Assembly (NCBI GenBank): GCA_030018935.1
Contig: JASEGZ010000002.1
Span: forward strand, 1-59,480
Source of the DNA: Syntrophales bacterium
GTDB lineage: Bacteria; Desulfobacterota; Syntrophia; Syntrophales; CG2-30-49-12
Direction of reading: 5' to 3'
DNA length: 59,480 bases
Part shown: positions 2,337-53,503 of the stretch, piece by piece
How the letters are laid out: each line of letters opens with the position of its first letter
How positions within the stretch are numbered: position 1 is the first letter of the stretch
Made by a program: the position numbers and the translations under genes
Notes under the pieces: model-generated
What the model was told of the DNA's origin: nothing
The model's input: the letters and a program-made list of their open reading frames with translations, nothing else
The model's database searches: none

Positions 2337-3161
2337 ATGTTACAAGGTTCAAAGTTTAAGCGGGGTTTATTGTTCTACGGTTTGTTCTGTACTGTATTAC
2401 TCTTTGTGATGGGTTTAGCTGCTAACTCCTACGCCGCCCATCCGCTTATCACTGATGATGCGGGCACGCAGGGCAAGGGGAAGTTTCAATTGGAGGTAAA
2501 TGGCGAATACAACTATGAAAAGGAGACGGAAGGGGGAGTAACGAAAAAAGAGACAGGCGGTGAAGCGGCAGCTATCCTATCCTATGGGATAGTGGACAGT
2601 CTTGATATTGTCCTCGGTGTTCCCTATCAATGGTTCAGGGTTAAAGAGGAGGGAGATGTAACTTCCAGAGAGGATGGGATATCCGATATGTCGCTGGAGT
2701 TAAAGTGGCGATTTTATGAGAAGGACGGATTAAGCCTTGCCTTGAAGCCGGGAATGACTTTACCGACAGGGGACGAGGAGAAGGAATTAGGGACAGGAAG
2801 AGCAACATACAGTCTGTATTTTATCACCACAAAGGAGATCGAGCCATGGGCATTCCATTTAAATCTCGGTTACACTCGTAATGAATACAAACTTCAAGAA
2901 GACAAAGATGACAACAGAAAAGATATATGGCATGCCTCCCTTGCCGGAGAGGTAGAAGTCGTTAAAAATCTTAAAGTTGTTGCGAACATCGGAGTGGAGA
3001 GAAATGCTGATGAAGCTTCAAGCACCCATCCTGCGTTTATTCTGGGCGGCTTAATCTATTCACTCTCGGAGAATTTTGACATTGATTTCGGCGTTAAAGG
3101 TGGCCTCAATAAACCTGAGACCGACTATTCAATACTTGCAGGGATAGCCCTGAGATTTTAG
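2337..3161 (+). CDS. exported beta-rich protein, outer-membrane 'transporter' type (MetA-pathway-like)
   Basis: 274 residues from the ATG at 2337, chosen because AAGGAGGA lies just before it; an upstream in-frame TTG has no such signal. The signal peptide ends ...NSYAA and the mature protein begins [14 protein letters not shown], typical of the PF13557-like 'phenol MetA degradation' barrel family found in metal-handling loci. Repeated amphipathic strands ([41 protein letters not shown]) and a terminal Phe point to a small outer-membrane barrel. With a TonB receptor and Ni/Co transporter around it, it probably belongs to metal uptake; the exact role is unknown. Confidence 0.65.
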
Positions 3162-3171
3162 GAGGTGGGAG

Positions 3172-3945
3172 ATGAAAAGCTGTAAATTTTTTGTATTAGC
3201 GGTGGTAGTTATGATCCTGATTTCAACCTCAACAGTTTGGGCGCATTTTGGCCTGATCATCCCTTCTGACGACATTGTCTCCAAGGGGGATGAGAAAAAA
3301 ATCGGTCTCCAGATCAAATTCATCCATCCTTTTGAAGGTCAGTACATGAACATGGAAAGACCGAAGGCAGTAGGAGTTATGGTAAACGGTAAGAGAGATG
3401 ACCTCCTTCCGACCCTGAAAAAGAAGGTGGTGAAGGGGTTTTCCACGTGGGAGGCTGAATATAGGATTAAAGGGCCTGGCGACCACATATTCTTTGTTGA
3501 GCCTGAACCATACTGGGAACCTGCAGAGGAGAGCTTCATCATTCATTACACGAAGGTCGTAGTCAGCGCCCTCGGAAGAGAAGAGGGATGGGATAATGAG
3601 GTAGGACTCAAGACCGAGATCGCGCCCCTGACAAGGCCCTATGGCCTATGGGCAGGCAATGTATTTCAGGGGATTGTAAAGGTGGACGGCAAGCCTGTGC
3701 CTTACGCAGAGGTGGAGGTTGAATACTACAACGAAGAGGGGAAGATAAAGCCGCCTGCCGATCCATATATAACCCAGGTCGTAAAGGCCGATGCCGGCGG
3801 CGTCTTCACCTATGCGATGCCGAAGGCTGGGTGGTGGGGATTTGCCGCCCTTAGCACCGCCGATTTCAAATTAAAGTATGAAGGCAGAGAATATCCTGTT
3901 GAGATTGGCGCTGTCCTGTGGGTGAAGACGAGGGAGATGAAATAA
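3172..3945 (+). CDS. DUF4198 family exported protein (NikK-like), second copy
   Basis: 257 residues. Signal peptide to about residue 24 (...STVWA) and a mature start [10 protein letters not shown], the characteristic opening of DUF4198 proteins linked to Ni/Co ECF transporters. The C-terminal third ([38 protein letters not shown]) is an immunoglobulin-like carrier fold. GGAGGTGGGAG lies before the ATG. The stop overlaps the cbiM start by one base (TAATG), tying it to the permease. It is only distantly similar to the copy at 1069, so the two may bind different metals or act at different steps (inference). Confidence 0.8.
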
Positions 3946-4550
3946 TGCATATATCAGAGGGAGTTCTTTCGGCGCCTGTCCTTATGGCAGGCGCCCTGCT
4001 TACCGTGGGCGGAACGGCGCTGGGACTTAAAAAGATGAACTATGAGAGGATACCGGAGGTGGCGGTTTTATCCTCTGCTTTCTTCGTCGCCTCTCTGATT
4101 CATGTGCCGGTAGGTCCATCAAGCGCTCACCTGATCCTCAATGGACTTGTAGGGCTTCTCCTGGGCTGGATGGCCTTCCCCTCCATTCTCGTGGCCTTGG
4201 CGCTTCAGGCGCTTCTCTTCCAGTTCGGCGGGTTTACCACCCTGGGTGTCAATACATTCAATATGGCAGCCCCTGCTATCATTGCCTATTATCTGTTTAA
4301 TCTGCCTGTGCGAAAGGGCAATCACCTTCTGAGCATTATCTCAGGGTTTGCCGCCGGCGCCATAGGTGTCGGTATGGGAGCCCTTCTCGTTGCCCTGACA
4401 CTTGTAAGCACAGGGGAGAGTTTTTTCAATGTGGCAAAATTGGTGGTAGTTGTACACCTGCCGGTGATGGTTATCGAGGGCATCATCACCGCCTTTTGTG
4501 TTGTATTTTTGAAAAGAGTAAAACCGGAAATCCTGGAGGTGAGGGGATGA
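3945..4550 (+). CDS. cbiM: ECF-type cobalt/nickel transporter substrate-binding membrane protein CbiM
   Basis: 201 residues starting MHISEGVLS. The Met-His N-terminus is the metal-binding site of CbiM/NikM proteins, so the ATG at 3945 is preferred over an upstream GTG. Hydrophobic segments occur at about 10-28, 42-60, 64-95, 100-120, 130-158 and 166-190. The HVPVGPSSAHLILNGLVG motif is diagnostic of the family. It is the substrate-capture component working with CbiQ and CbiO encoded downstream. It overlaps the gene before by one base and the gene after by four (ATGA). Cobalt versus nickel cannot be told from sequence alone. Confidence 0.93.
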   Translation: MHISEGVLSAPVLMAGALLTVGGTALGLKKMNYERIPEVAVLSSAFFVASLIHVPVGPSSAHLILNGLVGLLLGWMAFPSILVALALQALLFQFGGFTTLGVNTFNMAAPAIIAYYLFNLPVRKGNHLLSIISGFAAGAIGVGMGALLVALTLVSTGESFFNVAKLVVVVHLPVMVIEGIITAFCVVFLKRVKPEILEVRG

Positions 4551-5233
4551 AAGCAAGGATCAGGAGTCTTATCTTTTGTTTAGTACTCAGTATCTGTTAT
4601 TTGATGCCCGTTTCCGCCCATGCCCATAAGGTAAATATCTATGCCTATGCCGAGGATGGCATGATTCACTCAGAAAGTTATTTTGTTGATGGCACAAAAT
4701 GTAAGAATTCTCTTATCGAGGTCTTTGATGAAAGGGCAGGAACCAGACTATTGGAAGGTAAAACCGACGAAAATGGAAAGTTTTCCTTTAAAATTCCCAA
4801 GGTTACCTCCCTTAAACTGGTCCTCCATGCAAGCATGGGGCATCAGAATGAATACACACTTAGCGAGGATGAGGTCAGGGAGGCAATGGGTGAGGGACAA
4901 CGCCCACAAGGCGCCCGGCAGAGTAAAGAGACCAAGACCGGTAAAGAAACATCTAAATCTTCTTCTCAACCGGAGAGAGTCAGTACAAAGAGCCGTGGAA
5001 AAATGGATAGAGAGGTTACAGACATTGGCAGAGGCATGAGTGAATCAGAGATGGAGGCCCTTATGGAAAGGGTTATTGACCGTAAGTTAAAACCTGTGAT
5101 AGGGATGCTCGTTAAGTTACGGGAAAATAATGAAAAACCTGGTTTCACGGAGATCGTAGGAGGTATAGGTTATATCGTAGGATTGATGGGGGTGGCGATG
5201 TATCTGAAAAGAAGATTTAAGGAACGCAATTAA
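4547..5233 (+). CDS. CbiL/NikL-like exported protein with C-terminal membrane helix
   Basis: 228 residues, start at the ATG overlapping the cbiM stop (ATGA). Signal peptide (to ...VSAHA) leads into a His-containing mature end (HKVNIYAYAEDG) and a carboxypeptidase-regulatory-like domain (EVFDERAGTRLLEGKTDENGK). Then comes a charged, Ser/Lys-rich linker (about 115-165), a short helical part and a C-terminal transmembrane helix (about 200-220) with a basic tail. In Ni/Co ECF systems that lack CbiN, an L component of this design often fills the gap, and no CbiN is visible here. So it is probably an essential partner of CbiM (inference). Confidence 0.75.
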   Translation: MKARIRSLIFCLVLSICYLMPVSAHAHKVNIYAYAEDGMIHSESYFVDGTKCKNSLIEVFDERAGTRLLEGKTDENGKFSFKIPKVTSLKLVLHASMGHQNEYTLSEDEVREAMGEGQRPQGARQSKETKTGKETSKSSSQPERVSTKSRGKMDREVTDIGRGMSESEMEALMERVIDRKLKPVIGMLVKLRENNEKPGFTEIVGGIGYIVGLMGVAMYLKRRFKERN

Positions 5234-22709: not shown

Positions 22710-22754
22710 GTCGTATGTCTTATGACGTATGACTTATGACGTACGACGTACGAT
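22706..22754. repeat. period-7 repeat array between korD and cmk
   Basis: Seven consecutive 7-base units: GTAAGTC, GTATGTC, TTATGAC, GTATGAC, TTATGAC, GTACGAC, GTACGAT. The stops of the convergent genes korD (22709) and cmk (22734) both fall inside it, so the last cmk codons (RRTS) are repeat-derived. Similar arrays occur at 36354, 44905 and 48934. Confidence 0.9.
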
Positions 22755-34686: not shown

Positions 34687-34702
34687 TGGTATAGTTTTTG
34701 CT
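34687..34702 (+). promoter_or_regulatory. sigma-54 (-24/-12) promoter
   Basis: TGGTATAGTTTTTGCT: GG at 34688-34689 and GC at 34700-34701 with exactly ten bases between, and the TTGC block of the -12 element intact. It lies 66 bases before the ferredoxin start and just downstream of the gene for an NtrC-type activator. Confidence 0.65.
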
Positions 34703-35010: not shown

Positions 35011-35334
35011 ATGGCAGATTATTACATTAACGTCTTCCTCGATGATGAGAAACTCAAAAAGATTCAAGGCGCCGGATTGGCCGGCGAAATTAAGGAAATT
35101 GACGGTAAAAAGGCGGTTCAGGTTGGTCTTACCGGCAAGGAACAGAAGAAACTCGTCAAGGGTTTCCCGGAATTGGCCTTCGATTCTTCCAACGCCTGCG
35201 TAATTCCCGAGCAGGCGGAGAATATCCTGATGAATTTTATCCTGGATATGAAGACCTTAGATGTTATGAAGGTAGCCATTATGAAACTCTACAACCCCCT
35301 TGCGGGTAAGGATCTTCGTGCAAAGGTATTCTAA
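35011..35334 (+). CDS. unrecognised small protein, paralogue of the gene at 49029
   Basis: 107 residues, AGGAGGTACC before the ATG. I do not recognise the family. It shares with the protein at 49029 the pattern INxxxxxExxxKIxxAGLAxxxxE at the start, FPxxxFDS in the middle and KxxDVM near the end, so the two are paralogues. Both sit at the edges of sulfate-reduction gene modules (before dsrA; between sat and aprB). Soluble, mixed alpha/beta, one Cys, no signal peptide. A role as accessory or regulator of sulfate respiration is inferred from position only. Confidence 0.8.
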   Translation: MADYYINVFLDDEKLKKIQGAGLAGEIKEIDGKKAVQVGLTGKEQKKLVKGFPELAFDSSNACVIPEQAENILMNFILDMKTLDVMKVAIMKLYNPLAGKDLRAKVF

Positions 35335-35376: not shown

Positions 35377-35718
35377 GTGTCTGAACTTACCCCTGAAGAG
35401 GAAAAGAGGAAGAAGGCTATCTTTGAGAGCATGTCGGCAAGAAGCCGGAAGAGGATCCTCGATAAGGGATACGAGAGCTGGGACCCTTTCCTTATGCCGA
35501 ATGACCCCATTGACATCAGGATGGCCGGACAAAGGGAGACAGCTTCGGCGCTGGTAAGGAAGTTTCTACAAACATGCCGTCAAGAAGAGTACAGTAATGC
35601 TTACGGTCAAGGGGCGTGGGAAATCTGCGTAGGAATTATTGGCAACAACGACCGCTACAGGGGGATGTACGAGTTTTCCTGCTGGTACGGAAAGATATTG
35701 AAAAATGGTGAGTTATGA
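35377..35718 (+). CDS. unrecognised protein with WDPFxxPNDPIDIR motif
   Basis: 113 residues, GTG start. I do not recognise a Pfam family. Noted features: a charged N-terminal helix (ELTPEEEKRKKAIFESMSARSRKRI), a motif WDPFLMPNDPIDIR (about 31-44) that looks functional, and a helical part with two Cys (TCRQEE and WEICVG) and aromatic residues (YGQGAWEICVGIIGN). No signal peptide or membrane helix. It overlaps the TPR gene by four bases (ATGA), so the two are co-translated. Context points to sulfate reduction. Confidence 0.75.
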   Translation: MSELTPEEEKRKKAIFESMSARSRKRILDKGYESWDPFLMPNDPIDIRMAGQRETASALVRKFLQTCRQEEYSNAYGQGAWEICVGIIGNNDRYRGMYEFSCWYGKILKNGEL

Positions 35719-36338
35719 AGGAAGAGGTGTCCACTGAAGAGTACATCAGGGAACTGAAGCAGAGATCGGGAGATGACCCGGGATGTGCACTTACCCATTA
35801 CAACTTGGGGATTGCGCTTATAAAGCAGCATAAGTGGGATGAGGCAATATCCGAGTTTGAAGAGGCGATAGTAGAGAGTCCGCGCCTGGCAGAGGCATAC
35901 ATCAACCTGAGTGGGATATACTTCCAGAGGGGAGATCTGGAAAAGGGGATTGACATCTGCAGGAAAGTCATAGAGTTCAGGTCGGATTTTGCTATTCCCT
36001 ATGGCAATATAGGCTTTGCCTATCTGCAGATGGGGGAGGTTGAAAAGGCGATTGATATGCTCAAGAAGGCGGTTAAAAAAGACCCTGTGTTCGTTCAGGC
36101 CTTCAGCTCCCTGGGGAGCGCCTATTTTTGTCAGGGAAAGATTGAAGAGTGTATTGAAAACAATGAAAAGGCCATTGGAATTGCACCAAATTTTGCGGTT
36201 GCCCATAACAACCTCGCTGTTGCCTATTTCGAGAAGGGAGAATTCAAGAAGGCGATCCATCATTGTGACAGGGCGATAGAGTATGGGTATGAGGTATCCC
36301 CCGAACTTTTGGAGGAACTGAGAGCATTCCAGGAATAG
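35715..36338 (+). CDS. tetratricopeptide-repeat protein
   Basis: 207 residues made of about four to five TPR units (for example ALTHYNLGIALIKQHKWDEAISEFEEAI, AYINLSGIYFQRGDLEKGIDICRKVI, AYGNIGFAYLQMG-type, AHNNLAVAYFEKGEFKKAIHHCDRAIE). No signal peptide, so cytoplasmic. TPR proteins act as scaffolds; being co-translated with the 35377 gene and ahead of dsrA, it may help assemble or regulate the Dsr or ferredoxin complex (inference). Confidence 0.88.
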   Translation: MKEEVSTEEYIRELKQRSGDDPGCALTHYNLGIALIKQHKWDEAISEFEEAIVESPRLAEAYINLSGIYFQRGDLEKGIDICRKVIEFRSDFAIPYGNIGFAYLQMGEVEKAIDMLKKAVKKDPVFVQAFSSLGSAYFCQGKIEECIENNEKAIGIAPNFAVAHNNLAVAYFEKGEFKKAIHHCDRAIEYGYEVSPELLEELRAFQE

Positions 36339-36353
36339 TTTCCGCTAAAAACA

Positions 36354-36409
36354 AGTCGTATGTCGTAAGTCGTAAGTCGTAAGTCGTAAAACATAAGACG
36401 TATGACGAG
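36354..36409. repeat. period-7 repeat array in the dsrA leader region
   Basis: Eight 7-base units in exact register: AGTCGTA, TGTCGTA, AGTCGTA three times, AAACATA, AGACGTA, TGACGAG. Only 15 bases after the TPR gene stop. Confidence 0.9.
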
Positions 36410-36578: not shown

Positions 36579-36630
36579 TAAAAGGGAAATTCCTAAGAGT
36601 ATTAAATCACTTAAGAATGGAGGTATTTTG

Positions 36631-37938
36631 ATGGCAAAGCGTAAGACTCCTATGCTTGATGAGTTAGAGAAGGGAAGGTGGCCGAGTTTTGTCTCTGATA
36701 TGAAACAGGAGGCCGCTGCAAGAGAAAAAACGAAAGTTGATTTGCAAACACCGCGGGAGGCTTGTGATGATCTCCTCAGTCTTATGGAGCTCTCCTACGA
36801 AGATAAGGTAGGGCACTGGAAACATGGCGGTATCGTAGGTGTCTTCGGGTATGGTGGCGGTGTTATTGGCAGGTATTGTGACCAGCCCGAACAATTTCCG
36901 GCGGTGCGAGATTTTCATACCATGCGCGTAAATCAACCTTCCAGTTATTTTTATACCACGGAGCACTTAAGAAAAATATGTGATTTGTGGGAGAGACGGG
37001 GTAGCGGCCTCACCAACATGCATGGTTCCACCGGGGATATGATCTTACTGGGGACAACCACACCGCAGTTAGAAGAGATATTCTGGGAGCTTACCCATGA
37101 CCTCAAACAGGATCTCGGCGGTTCAGGCTCCAATCTCAGGACACCGAATTGCTGTATAGGAAAGGCCCGCTGTGAGTTTGCCTGCTACGATACCCAGCAT
37201 CTGTGTCATTCCTTTACCATGGAATATCAGGACGAGTTACACAGACCCGCATTTCCGTATAAATTCAAGTTTAAGTTTGATGGTTGTCCCAACGGCTGTG
37301 TGGCCTCTATCGCCAGGGCGGACATGTCGGTTATCGGCACCTGGCGGGATGACATCCGCATTGACCAGGAAGCGGTGAGGGCGTATGTAGGAGGCGACTT
37401 CAAGCCTAATGCCGGAGCCCATGCCGGTCGGAACTGGGGACCTTTCGATATTGAGAAAGAGGTGATTCATCTCTGCCCCACTCATTGCATGGCCTGGGAT
37501 GGGAAAAATCTCAAGATCAATAATAAGGAGTGCATTCGGTGTATGCACTGTATCAATACGATGCCCAGGGCCCTGAGGATTGGAGAGGATACCGGAGCAT
37601 CTATCCTATTTGGCGCCAAGGCCCCAATCTTAGAAGGCGCCCAGCTTTCCACATTAGTTGTTCCGTTTATGAAGATCGAGGAACCGTACGATGAGCTCAA
37701 GGAGTTGATTGAAAATGTATGGGATTGGTGGTCTGAAGGGGGGAAAAACCGTGAGCGCCTCGGTGAAATGATGCAGAGAGAGGGTCTCGGGAAACTTATG
37801 GAGGTTTGTGGGTTAAAGGCAGATCCTCGATCAATTAAGGAACCAAGATCTAACCCTTACATCTTCTGGAAGGAAGAGGACGTTGCCGGGGGATGGGAGC
37901 GGGATATTAAAGAATACAGGAAAAAACACCAGAAATAG
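36631..37938 (+). CDS. dsrA: dissimilatory sulfite reductase alpha subunit
   Basis: 435 residues from the ATG at 36631 (GGAGG seven bases before; a TTG at 36628 is less likely). The siroheme-[4Fe-4S] ligands appear as CCIGKARCEFAC (174, 175, 181, 185) and CPNGC (219-223). A ferredoxin domain follows with CPTHC (282-286) and CIRCMHC (301-307). With DsrB it reduces sulfite, passing the product sulfur to DsrC. Length and order of domains are those of reductive-type DsrA. It begins the main sulfate-respiration block. Confidence 0.98.
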   Translation: MAKRKTPMLDELEKGRWPSFVSDMKQEAAAREKTKVDLQTPREACDDLLSLMELSYEDKVGHWKHGGIVGVFGYGGGVIGRYCDQPEQFPAVRDFHTMRVNQPSSYFYTTEHLRKICDLWERRGSGLTNMHGSTGDMILLGTTTPQLEEIFWELTHDLKQDLGGSGSNLRTPNCCIGKARCEFACYDTQHLCHSFTMEYQDELHRPAFPYKFKFKFDGCPNGCVASIARADMSVIGTWRDDIRIDQEAVRAYVGGDFKPNAGAHAGRNWGPFDIEKEVIHLCPTHCMAWDGKNLKINNKECIRCMHCINTMPRALRIGEDTGASILFGAKAPILEGAQLSTLVVPFMKIEEPYDELKELIENVWDWWSEGGKNRERLGEMMQREGLGKLMEVCGLKADPRSIKEPRSNPYIFWKEEDVAGGWERDIKEYRKKHQK

Positions 37939-39099: not shown

Positions 39100-39345
39100 A
39101 TGGGCATAGAAGAGGATAAGCAGCTTATCGTCGAGACACTGAAGGGAAAGAAGGCAAAAACGAAGTTCTATTTGAGTGACTTCAATCATATCTTTCCTGA
39201 CAGAAAACCGAGGGAAGTAAAGAAGATTGTCAATGAGATGGTAGCTGAAGGTATCCTTGAGTACTGGTCAAGTGGCTCTACTACAATGATCGGTCTTAAG
39301 GGCGCAGGTGTGCAACACGGGGCAGAGGCCAGGGAAGAAGAGTAG
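39100..39345 (+). CDS. dsrD: DsrD winged-helix protein
   Basis: 81 residues, AGGAGAGAAG before the ATG. Conserved core KTKFYLSDFNHIFPDRKPRE and VNEMVAEGILEYWSSGSTTM form the winged helix. DsrD is known to raise DsrAB activity and is a marker for reductive (not oxidative) Dsr pathways, so this cluster most likely reduces sulfate or sulfite. Confidence 0.96.
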   Translation: MGIEEDKQLIVETLKGKKAKTKFYLSDFNHIFPDRKPREVKKIVNEMVAEGILEYWSSGSTTMIGLKGAGVQHGAEAREEE

Positions 39346-48933: not shown

Positions 48934-49007
48934 TACGTCGTCATACGTCATATGTCTTTCGACTTTCGACTTTCGACTTTCGACATACGACATATGACAT
49001 ACGACTA
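48934..49007. repeat. period-7 repeat array after sat
   Basis: About ten 7-base units including TCATACG, TCATATG, ACTTTCG three times, ACATACG, ACATATG, ACATACG. The ends are roughly complementary, so it can fold into a hairpin and may act as the sat terminator. The best example of the period-7 family in the window. Confidence 0.9.
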
Positions 49008-49028: not shown

Positions 49029-49331
49029 ATGACTGAAGAGAAGTATCCCATCAATATCTGGGTAAATGAGGAGAGGTATGAAAAAATTAGAAGTGCCGGT
49101 CTGGCAGACCTGTGTGAGGAGATGCTGGCTGGCTTAAAAGTGATAAGGGCCTACGCCAACGATGCACAGAAGGATAAGATACTTTCGCTTTTTCCTACGG
49201 CAAAATTCGACAGTGCCACGACCAAAAGTATCGAGCTTCTTCCCAGGGAGGTAAAGGATAAGATATTTGATCTGATCGTGGAGAAAAAGAAAGTGGACGT
49301 TATGGAAGAGTTCTTGAAGCAACAGGGGTAA
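49029..49331 (+). CDS. unrecognised small protein, paralogue of the gene at 35011
   Basis: 100 residues, TTGAGGAGGTG before the ATG. It shares with the 35011 protein INIWVNEExxxKIxxAGLA at the start, FPTAKFDS in the middle and KKVDVMEEFL near the end. One Cys, soluble, no signal peptide. It sits between sat and aprB, the two enzymes that make and use APS. Function unknown. Confidence 0.8.
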   Translation: MTEEKYPINIWVNEERYEKIRSAGLADLCEEMLAGLKVIRAYANDAQKDKILSLFPTAKFDSATTKSIELLPREVKDKIFDLIVEKKKVDVMEEFLKQQG

Positions 49332-49458: not shown

Positions 49459-49905
49459 ATGCCAAGTTATGTCATTACGGAGAAGTGTGACGGCTGCAAA
49501 GGGCAGGATAAGACGGCATGTATGCATATCTGCCCCAACGATTTAATGGTCTTGAACAAAGAGACAATGAAGGCCTACAATCAGGAGCCTACCTATTGCT
49601 GGGAGTGTTATTGTTGTGTGAAGATATGTCCACAGCAGGCTATGGATGTAAGGGGGTACGCAGACTTTATGCCCCTTGGCGCTGCCTCAACCCCCCTGAG
49701 AGGATCAGAGGACATCATGTGGACAATCACATTCAGGGACGGGAGGATAAAGAGGTTTAAGTATGCCATCAGGACGACACCGGAGGGTTCAATAAAGCCA
49801 TTCGAGGGATTTCCCGAGGCAAAGGCAGCAGATTTGAACAATCACTTACTTCTCGGAGAACCCGACATAATGGGAGTAAAAGATCTCCCAACAAAGAAAA
49901 AATAG
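49459..49905 (+). CDS. aprB: adenylylsulfate reductase beta subunit
   Basis: 148 residues, AAGGAGG before the ATG. Cluster ligands CDGCKGQDKTACMHICPND and CWECYCCVKICPQQAMDVRGYADF, the AprB pattern of two [4Fe-4S] clusters with very different potentials. The C-terminal tail (about 105-148) wraps AprA. It passes electrons from QmoABC to the FAD of AprA. Confidence 0.98.
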   Translation: MPSYVITEKCDGCKGQDKTACMHICPNDLMVLNKETMKAYNQEPTYCWECYCCVKICPQQAMDVRGYADFMPLGAASTPLRGSEDIMWTITFRDGRIKRFKYAIRTTPEGSIKPFEGFPEAKAADLNNHLLLGEPDIMGVKDLPTKKK

Positions 49906-51838: not shown

Positions 51839-51851
51839 GCCAGATGTATCC

Positions 51852-51888
51852 ATGGGGGCGATCTTTCCGGTCGCCCCCATATTTTATT
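51852..51888 (+). terminator. rho-independent terminator of aprBA
   Basis: Perfect 10-bp stem ATGGGGGCGA / TCGCCCCCAT (51852-51861 and 51871-51880), 9-base loop, then ATTTTATT. It begins 14 bases after the aprA stop. Confidence 0.85.
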
Positions 51889-51900
51889 AGAGAATGGCCT

Positions 51901-52686
51901 ATGAATGAAGAGTATGCTGAAAAACGCCGAAGGCTCTCTCTGGATGGCAGATTCAGATTTTCATGTCACAATGGACTTTTCTGTTTTAACACCTGCTGCG
52001 CTGATATAAATATCTTTCTCACACCTTATGATTTCCTGAGGATGAGAAGGGCTACGGGGTTGTCTTCGGGAGAATTCTTAAAGGGATATACCATCCCACT
52101 CTTAGGCGAGGAGAGGTTACCTCTGGTTGTGCTTAAGATGAAGGAGGACGAAAATAAGAGCTGTCCTTTTGTTACCCAAGAGGGTTGCAGTATATACCAG
52201 GACAGACCATGGTCATGCAGGATGTATCCCATATTCCCCTCTTCTTCAAAAGAAGAAGAATTTTTTATAGAGGAAGGGAGCTCATGCCTTGGATTTAAAG
52301 AGGAAAAATGGTGGACAATACAAGAGTGGAAGAAGGGTCATGGGATCGATATCTATGATAAAATGAATGAATCTTATAAGGAGATTACCTTCCATGATTA
52401 TTTCCTGAAGGGGAATAAACTTGATCCAGGAAGGTCGAAGATGCTTTATATGGCCTGTTACGACCTGGATGAGTTTAACAGATTTCTTTTTGAAACCAGG
52501 TTTTTTGATATTTATGATGTGGAGAGGGAGACTATTGAAAGAATAAAAGAAGACGAGGAAGAACTCCTAAGTTTTGGATATAGATGGGTAAGATTCAATT
52601 TCTTTGGGGAAGATACATTAAGACTCAAAGATAAGACTTTTGAGAAGATTTTGCAGGCCAAGAGGAAGGAATCTCTAAAGGATTAA
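51901..52686 (+). CDS. YkgJ-like Cys-cluster protein, copy 1
   Basis: 261 residues from the ATG at 51901 (an upstream ATG at 51844 lies before the terminator and is not used). YkgJ/UPF0153 pattern: FSCHNGLFCFNTCC near the start, CPFVTQEGCSIYQDRPWSCRMYPI in the middle and CLGF later. These Cys bind Zn or an iron-sulfur cluster. The C-terminal half is helical and charged. Between AprBA and Qmo, it may help assemble or connect them, but the function is not known. Confidence 0.8.
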   Translation: MNEEYAEKRRRLSLDGRFRFSCHNGLFCFNTCCADINIFLTPYDFLRMRRATGLSSGEFLKGYTIPLLGEERLPLVVLKMKEDENKSCPFVTQEGCSIYQDRPWSCRMYPIFPSSSKEEEFFIEEGSSCLGFKEEKWWTIQEWKKGHGIDIYDKMNESYKEITFHDYFLKGNKLDPGRSKMLYMACYDLDEFNRFLFETRFFDIYDVERETIERIKEDEEELLSFGYRWVRFNFFGEDTLRLKDKTFEKILQAKRKESLKD

Positions 52687-52714
52687 GAGAGACAAGCAAA
52701 GAAAGGATTAATCC

Positions 52715-53503
52715 ATGTTAATGGATATGGGTGTCGTGGAACCTGTTAAGCGCACACTGGATTCCAAATTCAAATTCGGATGTCATAATGATATCAGCTG
52801 CTTTACTAGCTGTTGTAGCCGTACAAGTATAATTCTTACCCCCTATGACATCGTAAGGATAAAAAATAGGTTGGGAATCTCTTCAGGAGATTTCCTCGAG
52901 AAATACACCTACACCTATATTGATGAAGAGAACTCACATCCTTATGCAGTGCTTAAGGTGATGGATGATAATAAAGGGGGATGTCCCTTTGTTACACCTG
53001 AGGGCTGCAGTATTTATGAAGACCGGCCTTCTAACTGTCGCTATTATCCTGTCGGTCAAGGTCTCATGATAATTGGCTCAGAGGAAGGGCCGGTAAATGA
53101 AGAATTTTACTTCTTTATAAGAGATCCAAATTGTCTTGGTTATCAGGAGGGCAGAGAGTGGACAATAGAGAGTTGGAGGATCAACCAGGGAGCTGACATT
53201 TATGATGATATGACAAGGGAGTGGATGGAGATCCAGTTGAGGAGAAACCCATCTGAGCAGTCCAAACTCGACTCGAAGAAACAGGCCATGCTTTACATGG
53301 CAAGCTATGATTTAGATAAGTTCAAAAGATTTATTTCTGAGAGTAAACTTCTCGATATCCTTGAGATTGATAAGGTGGAGGTCGAAAAGATAAAAACTGA
53401 TGAAATAGCGCTGATGAAGTTTGGATTCAAATACCTGAAATACATCCTGATGCTTGAGGAAACGTTGAAAGTAAAAAAAGAATCATTGCCGTCCCAACGT
53501 TAG
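52715..53503 (+). CDS. YkgJ-like Cys-cluster protein, copy 2
   Basis: 262 residues, tandem paralogue of the previous gene with the same Cys layout (FGCHNDISCFTSCC, CPFVTPEGCSIYEDRPSNCRYYP, CLGY) and the same C-terminal design (LYMASYDLDKFKRF). The ATG at 52715 is preceded by AAAGGA. The two have drifted well apart, suggesting an old duplication or separate jobs. Tandem YkgJ proteins here suggest a dimeric or two-part factor. Confidence 0.8.
   Translation: MLMDMGVVEPVKRTLDSKFKFGCHNDISCFTSCCSRTSIILTPYDIVRIKNRLGISSGDFLEKYTYTYIDEENSHPYAVLKVMDDNKGGCPFVTPEGCSIYEDRPSNCRYYPVGQGLMIIGSEEGPVNEEFYFFIRDPNCLGYQEGREWTIESWRINQGADIYDDMTREWMEIQLRRNPSEQSKLDSKKQAMLYMASYDLDKFKRFISESKLLDILEIDKVEVEKIKTDEIALMKFGFKYLKYILMLEETLKVKKESLPSQR

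Follow-up and report, generated by a model that had tools for sequence, protein, structure and literature searches.

The window, by which we mean the whole stretch of 59,480 nucleotides analysed from contig JASEGZ010000002.1 of a Syntrophales bacterium, carries an island with the order histidine kinase and sigma-54 activator, ferredoxin, the small gene at 35011, orf113, TPR protein, dsrABDN, dsrC, OsmC-like protein, RsbRD_N protein, dsrMKJOP, ferredoxin, sat, the small gene at 49029, aprBA, two YkgJ-like genes and qmoABC. Part of these genes were assigned with Pfam and NCBIfam, and the names dsrMKJOP, apr, qmo, OsmC and YkgJ come from a reading of the sequence. The features that concern us here are the following, types I and III being subfamilies defined below:

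34687..34702, + strand: -24/-12 promoter motif of the sigma-54 type, TGGTATAGTTTTTGCT; no second exact match to the consensus in the window, found exactly also in L032, L033 and L227
34768..34980, + strand: 2x4Fe-4S ferredoxin, whose gene precedes that of type III; Pfam Fer4, conserved neighbour
35011..35334, + strand: DUF6955 type III protein, 107 aa, Dsr-locus subfamily; PF22271 88.1 bits; same place before orf113-TPR-dsrA in relatives
35377..35718, + strand: orf113, 113 aa, regular type III neighbour; no Pfam or NCBIfam match
35715..36338, + strand: TPR protein, regular type III neighbour before dsrA; Pfam TPR
36628..37938, + strand: dsrA; TIGR02064 605 bits
47668..48933, + strand: sat, encoding an ATP sulfurylase that belongs to the DUF6955-linked clade and has the motif RNVPHTGHE, an insert near 213-222 and a C-terminal tail that runs to 421; NCBIfam NF003166/TIGR00339 over cut-off, assigned by clade and features
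48938..49006, + strand: hairpin of heptamer repeats in the gap that separates sat from the type I gene; -23.4 kcal/mol, z -3.7, tandem repeats
49029..49331, + strand: DUF6955 type I protein, 100 aa, Sat-linked subfamily; PF22271 114.9 bits; directly after sat in 76/80 loci
49459..49905, + strand: aprB, which follows type I in the window and not in most loci; order conserved in part of the loci only

Both small open reading frames were confirmed, each behind a clear Shine-Dalgarno sequence. As an earlier note on this DNA had described, they encode paralogous proteins (30% identity over 88 aligned residues, E 1e-12 in a single comparison), one between the ferredoxin gene and orf113-TPR-dsrA and the other between sat and aprB. 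The motifs which that note had named as shared are present, but the central loop differs, reading FDSATTKSIELLP in 49029 and FDSSNACVIP in 35011, and this difference separates subfamilies. The note had recognised no known family. This holds insofar as no family of known function was found; the family itself is already catalogued in Pfam as PF22271 (DUF6955), an entry whose name gives no function. Both proteins are full-length members which cover all 91 positions of the profile and score far above the gathering cut-off of 27 bits (whole-protein score), and no third copy was found in the genome of the window. Neither protein matched the DsrD profile (PF08679) at E values up to 1, and the island has its own dsrD at 39100. 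NCBIfam and PHROGs gave nothing of weight for the two, a search of solved-structure sequences for function returned no match apart from one chance hit to a uridylate kinase (E 1.7), and the name DUF6955 occurred in no paper found in our literature search.

What we add to the Pfam entry is a division into three subfamilies, of which types I and II are tied to one Sat clade and type III to a Dsr locus. The division was made by sequence, with relatives from 247 genomes of the window's phylum and additional fetched loci; hits in which a wrong-frame sat reading frame was fused to a DUF frame (L019/L055) were excluded from the sequence set. Type I proteins have about 100 aa and the loop FDSATTKSIELLP. 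Type II proteins, which are absent from the window, have about 118-136 aa, the loop IDSRGAITDVP and usually a tail like KESEYLPPPDIE. Type III proteins comprise about 107 aa with the loop DSSNACVLP, whose cysteine was invariant in 11 sequences, and the tail MKLYNPLAGKxxR. The protein at 49029 belongs to type I by its FDSATTKSIELLP-like loop and because its gene comes immediately behind that of a Sat of the RNVPHxGHE clade. The protein at 35011, with its FDSSNACVIP loop and its place in the Dsr locus, falls outside type I and was assigned to type III.

Structure prediction was of little help for the function. AlphaFold2 gave a confident monomer model for 49029 (pLDDT 95.1, pTM 0.87) in the order beta-alpha-beta-beta-alpha, a short beta region and two helices, and a weaker one for 35011 (80.5), which was folded on a mostly type I alignment. 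A Foldseek search against the PDB returned nothing significant; among the weak top matches (E 0.46 or worse, TM about 0.25) were PII, HisG, NusG and ACT-like domains, which are ferredoxin-like folds. VIA-align among 698 chains reached a Z of at most 2.3, and neither model had a fold match of weight in these comparisons. As modelled, the fold of DUF6955 gives no functional clue, and a claim to a new fold does not follow from it.

The gene neighbourhood was more informative. A scan of genome contigs with the type I alignment left 80 named loci, which, with groups named as in the record titles, span Thermodesulfobacteriota, Nitrospirota, Bacillota, Chloroflexota, Aerophobetes, Armatimonadetes and others. 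In 76 of them sat is the gene immediately upstream of the type I gene and shares its strand, with a median gap of 15 bp; in the window this gap holds the hairpin, whereas elsewhere it is usually about 15 bp long. Where at least 6 kb were available on both sides (38 loci), sat was present in 38, aprA in 15 and dsr genes in 0. The type II gene likewise adjoins sat in every locus that reaches the sat side (L054 ends too near the contig edge), and the Sats concerned are 35-39% identical to that of the window. No fusion of Sat with DUF6955 was seen.

Four loci depart from sat adjacency, namely L111, whose contig is truncated, L119, and two from Aerophobetes. In one of the latter (L136), two genes, a sulfatase and a PAPS-reductase-like one, intervene between sat and the type I gene; in the other (L138), no recognised sat was found in the genome assembly, and the neighbours are by sequence PAPS-reductase-domain genes, together with adenylate kinase. 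In L119 (positions 2890-4869) the type I gene has a GTG start and lies 408 bp after a Sat gene of another clade, between aprBA-sat and qmoA. This is the only Sat found in that genome; possibly, a Sat was displaced in place and its partner left behind. A further locus, L131 (5975-8977), has two tandem sat genes of different clades with DUF6955 after the second only, and represents a natural case of replacement or duplication. Moreover, the nearest named relative of the window, Syntrophaceae bacterium CG2_30_49_12, is 85-97% identical in the island genes compared, and 94% in the type I protein but only 81% in Sat. Sat and its partner thus need not move together, and the sequences hint that sat has had a history of its own in one of the two genomes.

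To place these enzymes, a tree of 78 Sats was built by a quick method from DUF-positive loci and 60 places lacking a type I or II neighbour. The DUF-linked Sats formed one clade (SH-aLRT 100) that is split by type I versus type II partner, and it contained none of the Sats without a DUF neighbour that the Sat profile had retrieved. Sampling bias is a concern in this comparison, since the search for DUF-linked Sats started from the DUF gene; the DUF-negative Sats were all drawn from a single phylum. The DUF label changed 3 times on the tree, compared with a mean of about 26 after shuffling. Two of the three changes concern L119, whose Sat truly belongs to another clade, and L131, whose tandem Sats were mislabelled by the distance rule. 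We rejected L131 as an exception, as the DUF-adjacent one of its two sat genes is of the right kind. Members of the clade carry QTRNVPHxGHE in place of the QxRNPxHxxHE of other Sats; the C-terminal tail is conserved across the clade, and most type I Sats have an insert near 213-222.

The earlier note had proposed partners of Dsr and of Sat/Apr. The second half of this proposal reduces to Sat, which is the neighbour with or without aprBA nearby. In 23 loci with Sat, type I protein and AprA, a partial Mantel test related DUF6955 distances to Sat given AprA at 0.64, with 0/2000 permutations as high, and to AprA given Sat at only 0.09 (251/2000); as linked genes share their history, this result is support and not proof.

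The closest solved Sat to that of the window is MtATPS of Methanothermococcus thermolithotrophicus (PDB 8a8d/8a8g). Both have the QTRNVPHxGHE motif, but MtATPS is shorter, lacks the insert, and its alignment ends before the C-terminal tail. In the accessible part of its description, MtATPS has a zinc-binding domain III and is a homodimer, and no small partner is mentioned there (PMC10322725). A sulfurylase with a dedicated second subunit is known from CysD-CysN, which the same part describes as a catalytic subunit and a regulatory GTPase subunit (PMC10322725). A DUF6955 partnership might work alike, although DUF6955 has only about 100 aa, did not match a GTPase and would pair with a homo-oligomeric Sat and not with CysD. 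Besides, an operon Sat-ORF2-AprAB was described for Archaeoglobus fulgidus, which in the portion of the literature available to us was the only mention of a sat-ORF2 operon (PMC3949148). ORF2 has the same position between sat and aprBA as the type I gene, and we liken the two by position alone.

It had also been suggested that the family has a dedicated role in sulfate respiration, with its members serving as partners of Dsr and Sat/Apr. In the window's phylum dsrA was present in 47 of 48 DUF6955 genomes (Fisher p 2e-16), the order sat-DUF-aprBA-qmo is common and type III is linked to Dsr; so far, a strong co-occurrence with dsrA was borne out, as was the linkage of one copy to Sat and the other to Dsr. 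However, the profile search also showed that DUF6955 occurred in just 47 of the 120 dsrA genomes of this phylum and was lacking in 73. Furthermore, the Sat-linked type was found where neither dsrA nor aprA was detected. Three Dehalococcoidia/Chloroflexi loci (L129, L135 and L142) show the order cysC-sat-DUF, accompanied in at least two cases by a sulfotransferase-like gene (the sulfotransferase and APS kinase were checked with Pfam on L129). In the genomes of all three, dsrA was not matched and no aprA exceeded the cut-off. With PAPS-reductase-like neighbours, sat-DUF6955 was seen in Aerophobetes and one Syntrophaceae MAG; the genomes of L126 and L136, which have PAPS-reductase-domain genes nearby, likewise had no dsrA or aprA over the cut-off. 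Since part of these MAGs are incomplete, such absences are suggestive and not proof. Other genomes (L140, L219 and L220) have a partial dsr and/or apr set.

Outside the window's phylum the family is rare, with 2 positives among 400 genomes for the phylum of L129 and 5 among 398 for that of L128, in all cases next to sat. Sulfolobus acidocaldarius, included as a control, has a DUF6955 copy and a Sat and is not known to have dsrAB, which also argues against a partner dedicated to sulfate respiration. Given this match we considered the Hyp protein of the sHdr complex (gene order hdrC1B1A-hyp-hdrC2B2), and set the idea aside when the linkage to sat had become apparent. Wide occurrence in organisms without sulfur metabolism, which would have spoken against any role of this kind, was not found in the genomes searched. 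On the evidence of sequence and gene order, types I and II follow a Sat class and not sulfate respiration, and this companionship apparently holds even where sulfate is not respired. We consider a dedicated partner of sulfate respiration quite unlikely, and a DUF6955 gene is unsuitable as a marker of that metabolism.

We instead propose that the protein at 49029 is a small non-catalytic accessory subunit or a tightly bound regulator of one homo-oligomeric Sat class, and that 35011 encodes a paralogue which has diverged and now works at the Dsr step; our confidence in this reading is evenly divided. We favour a subunit or regulator because the gene is small and fixed behind one enzyme class, its sequence follows that of the enzyme, and its other company changes. 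Encoded directly behind Sat, the type I protein would act with Sat at the APS-forming step. It probably docks on a feature unique to its Sat class, and we guess that this may be the C-terminal tail KYGFGSPFVTxEYLxKRxPVF, because tail and partner co-occur. The likely effect would be that Sat is stabilised or its activity tuned, whether the APS is passed to Apr, APS kinase or PAPS reductase.

That APS is common to all contexts, namely sat-DUF-aprBA, cysC-sat-DUF and sat with PAPS-reductase-like genes, would also suit a type I protein which is not a subunit of Sat but carries or channels APS from Sat to Apr, APS kinase or PAPS reductase, and in L042 a type III gene adjoins genes for APS kinase and an inositol-monophosphatase-family protein. 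We regard such a carrier as unlikely, since the gene follows one Sat clade only while Sats without DUF6955 also serve dsrA-bearing genomes, since the sequence distances track Sat and not AprA, and since no nucleotide-binding motif was recognised in the type I protein. It is also conceivable that the type I gene is a housekeeping hitch-hiker kept beside sat by operon inheritance, as L119, where the Sat gene differs and the DUF gene stays, might be taken to indicate. Yet adjacency over several phyla with varied surroundings on the other side would be hard to keep without a functional tie, and two diverged subfamilies both retain it, which makes mere hitch-hiking very improbable.

With regard to the second half of the proposed reading, 35011, which shows an N-x-C-[VT]-[LI]-P loop and the C-terminal MKLYNPLAGKxxR tail where the Sat-type loop SATTKSIELLP is missing, would be a paralogue of long standing. 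Going by linkage alone, it may serve the Dsr step in a ferredoxin-DUF-orf113-TPR-dsrABD locus. Among 155 genomes searched in the window's class, type III was found in 13 (E up to 1e-15), and orf113, TPR and/or dsrA lie beside it in 12 of the 13 loci, the window included. In six genomes of one family (f41) the order is ferredoxin-III-orf113-TPR-dsrA-dsrB-dsrD-dsrN; the Sat genes of these genomes have no DUF neighbour, and type III is therefore independent of a partner-type Sat. A distant type III copy (38%) was found directly after a dsrP-like gene in L238. Other settings in the phylum were a locus with nothing telling (L036) and one near putative methylene-THF reductase genes (L038).

The position of 35011 at the start of its operon also fits a sensor or regulator that works with the sigma-54 system and the ferredoxin and is not a partner of Dsr. 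The exact sigma-54 motif sits upstream of the ferredoxin gene, between the activator/kinase pair and the ferredoxin-DUF6955-orf113-TPR-dsr genes (near-matches in the whole window numbered 8 against a shuffle mean of 2.7), so that 35011 is the second gene after it; dsrA follows 1.3 kb beyond 35011, behind a 290-bp gap. This order is kept in relatives, and three of the six f41 genomes also carry the kinase and the activator upstream, within the limits of the sequence available. However, many relatives show DUF-orf113-TPR-dsrA with no activator or ferredoxin gene detected in the short stretches available, and no DNA-binding or sensory domain was matched in Pfam or NCBIfam. A regulatory role of type III thus appears improbable to us.

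Taken further, the proposed Sat partnership would define a two-component class of ATP sulfurylase over several bacterial phyla and possibly archaea, composed of Sat and an obligate DUF6955 subunit of 100 residues without a fold match in the PDB, in a family that was re-targeted to the sulfite-reductase step via a different central loop and C-terminus. We put this forward tentatively and consider it rather doubtful in this general form. In these organisms every route of sulfate use begins with ATP sulfurylase, and a second component on one Sat class, if true, would alter how the enzyme is purified, assayed and modelled. A bound partner, if true, might also explain the different substrate motif and the extra tail of this Sat class. 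It would also offer a testable function to a family so far listed only as DUF6955.

Two further observations were made in the window. The genes that separate aprA from qmoA (51844-53503) encode two cysteine-rich YkgJ-like proteins in tandem, and several relatives (L118, L124 and L125) keep them with 66-77% identity. In addition, short arrays of CGTATGA/AAGTCGT/CTTTCGA-like heptamers lie in intergenic gaps of the window at 48938-49006, 36346-36404 and 22712-22750, and the heptamers of the three arrays look related to each other.
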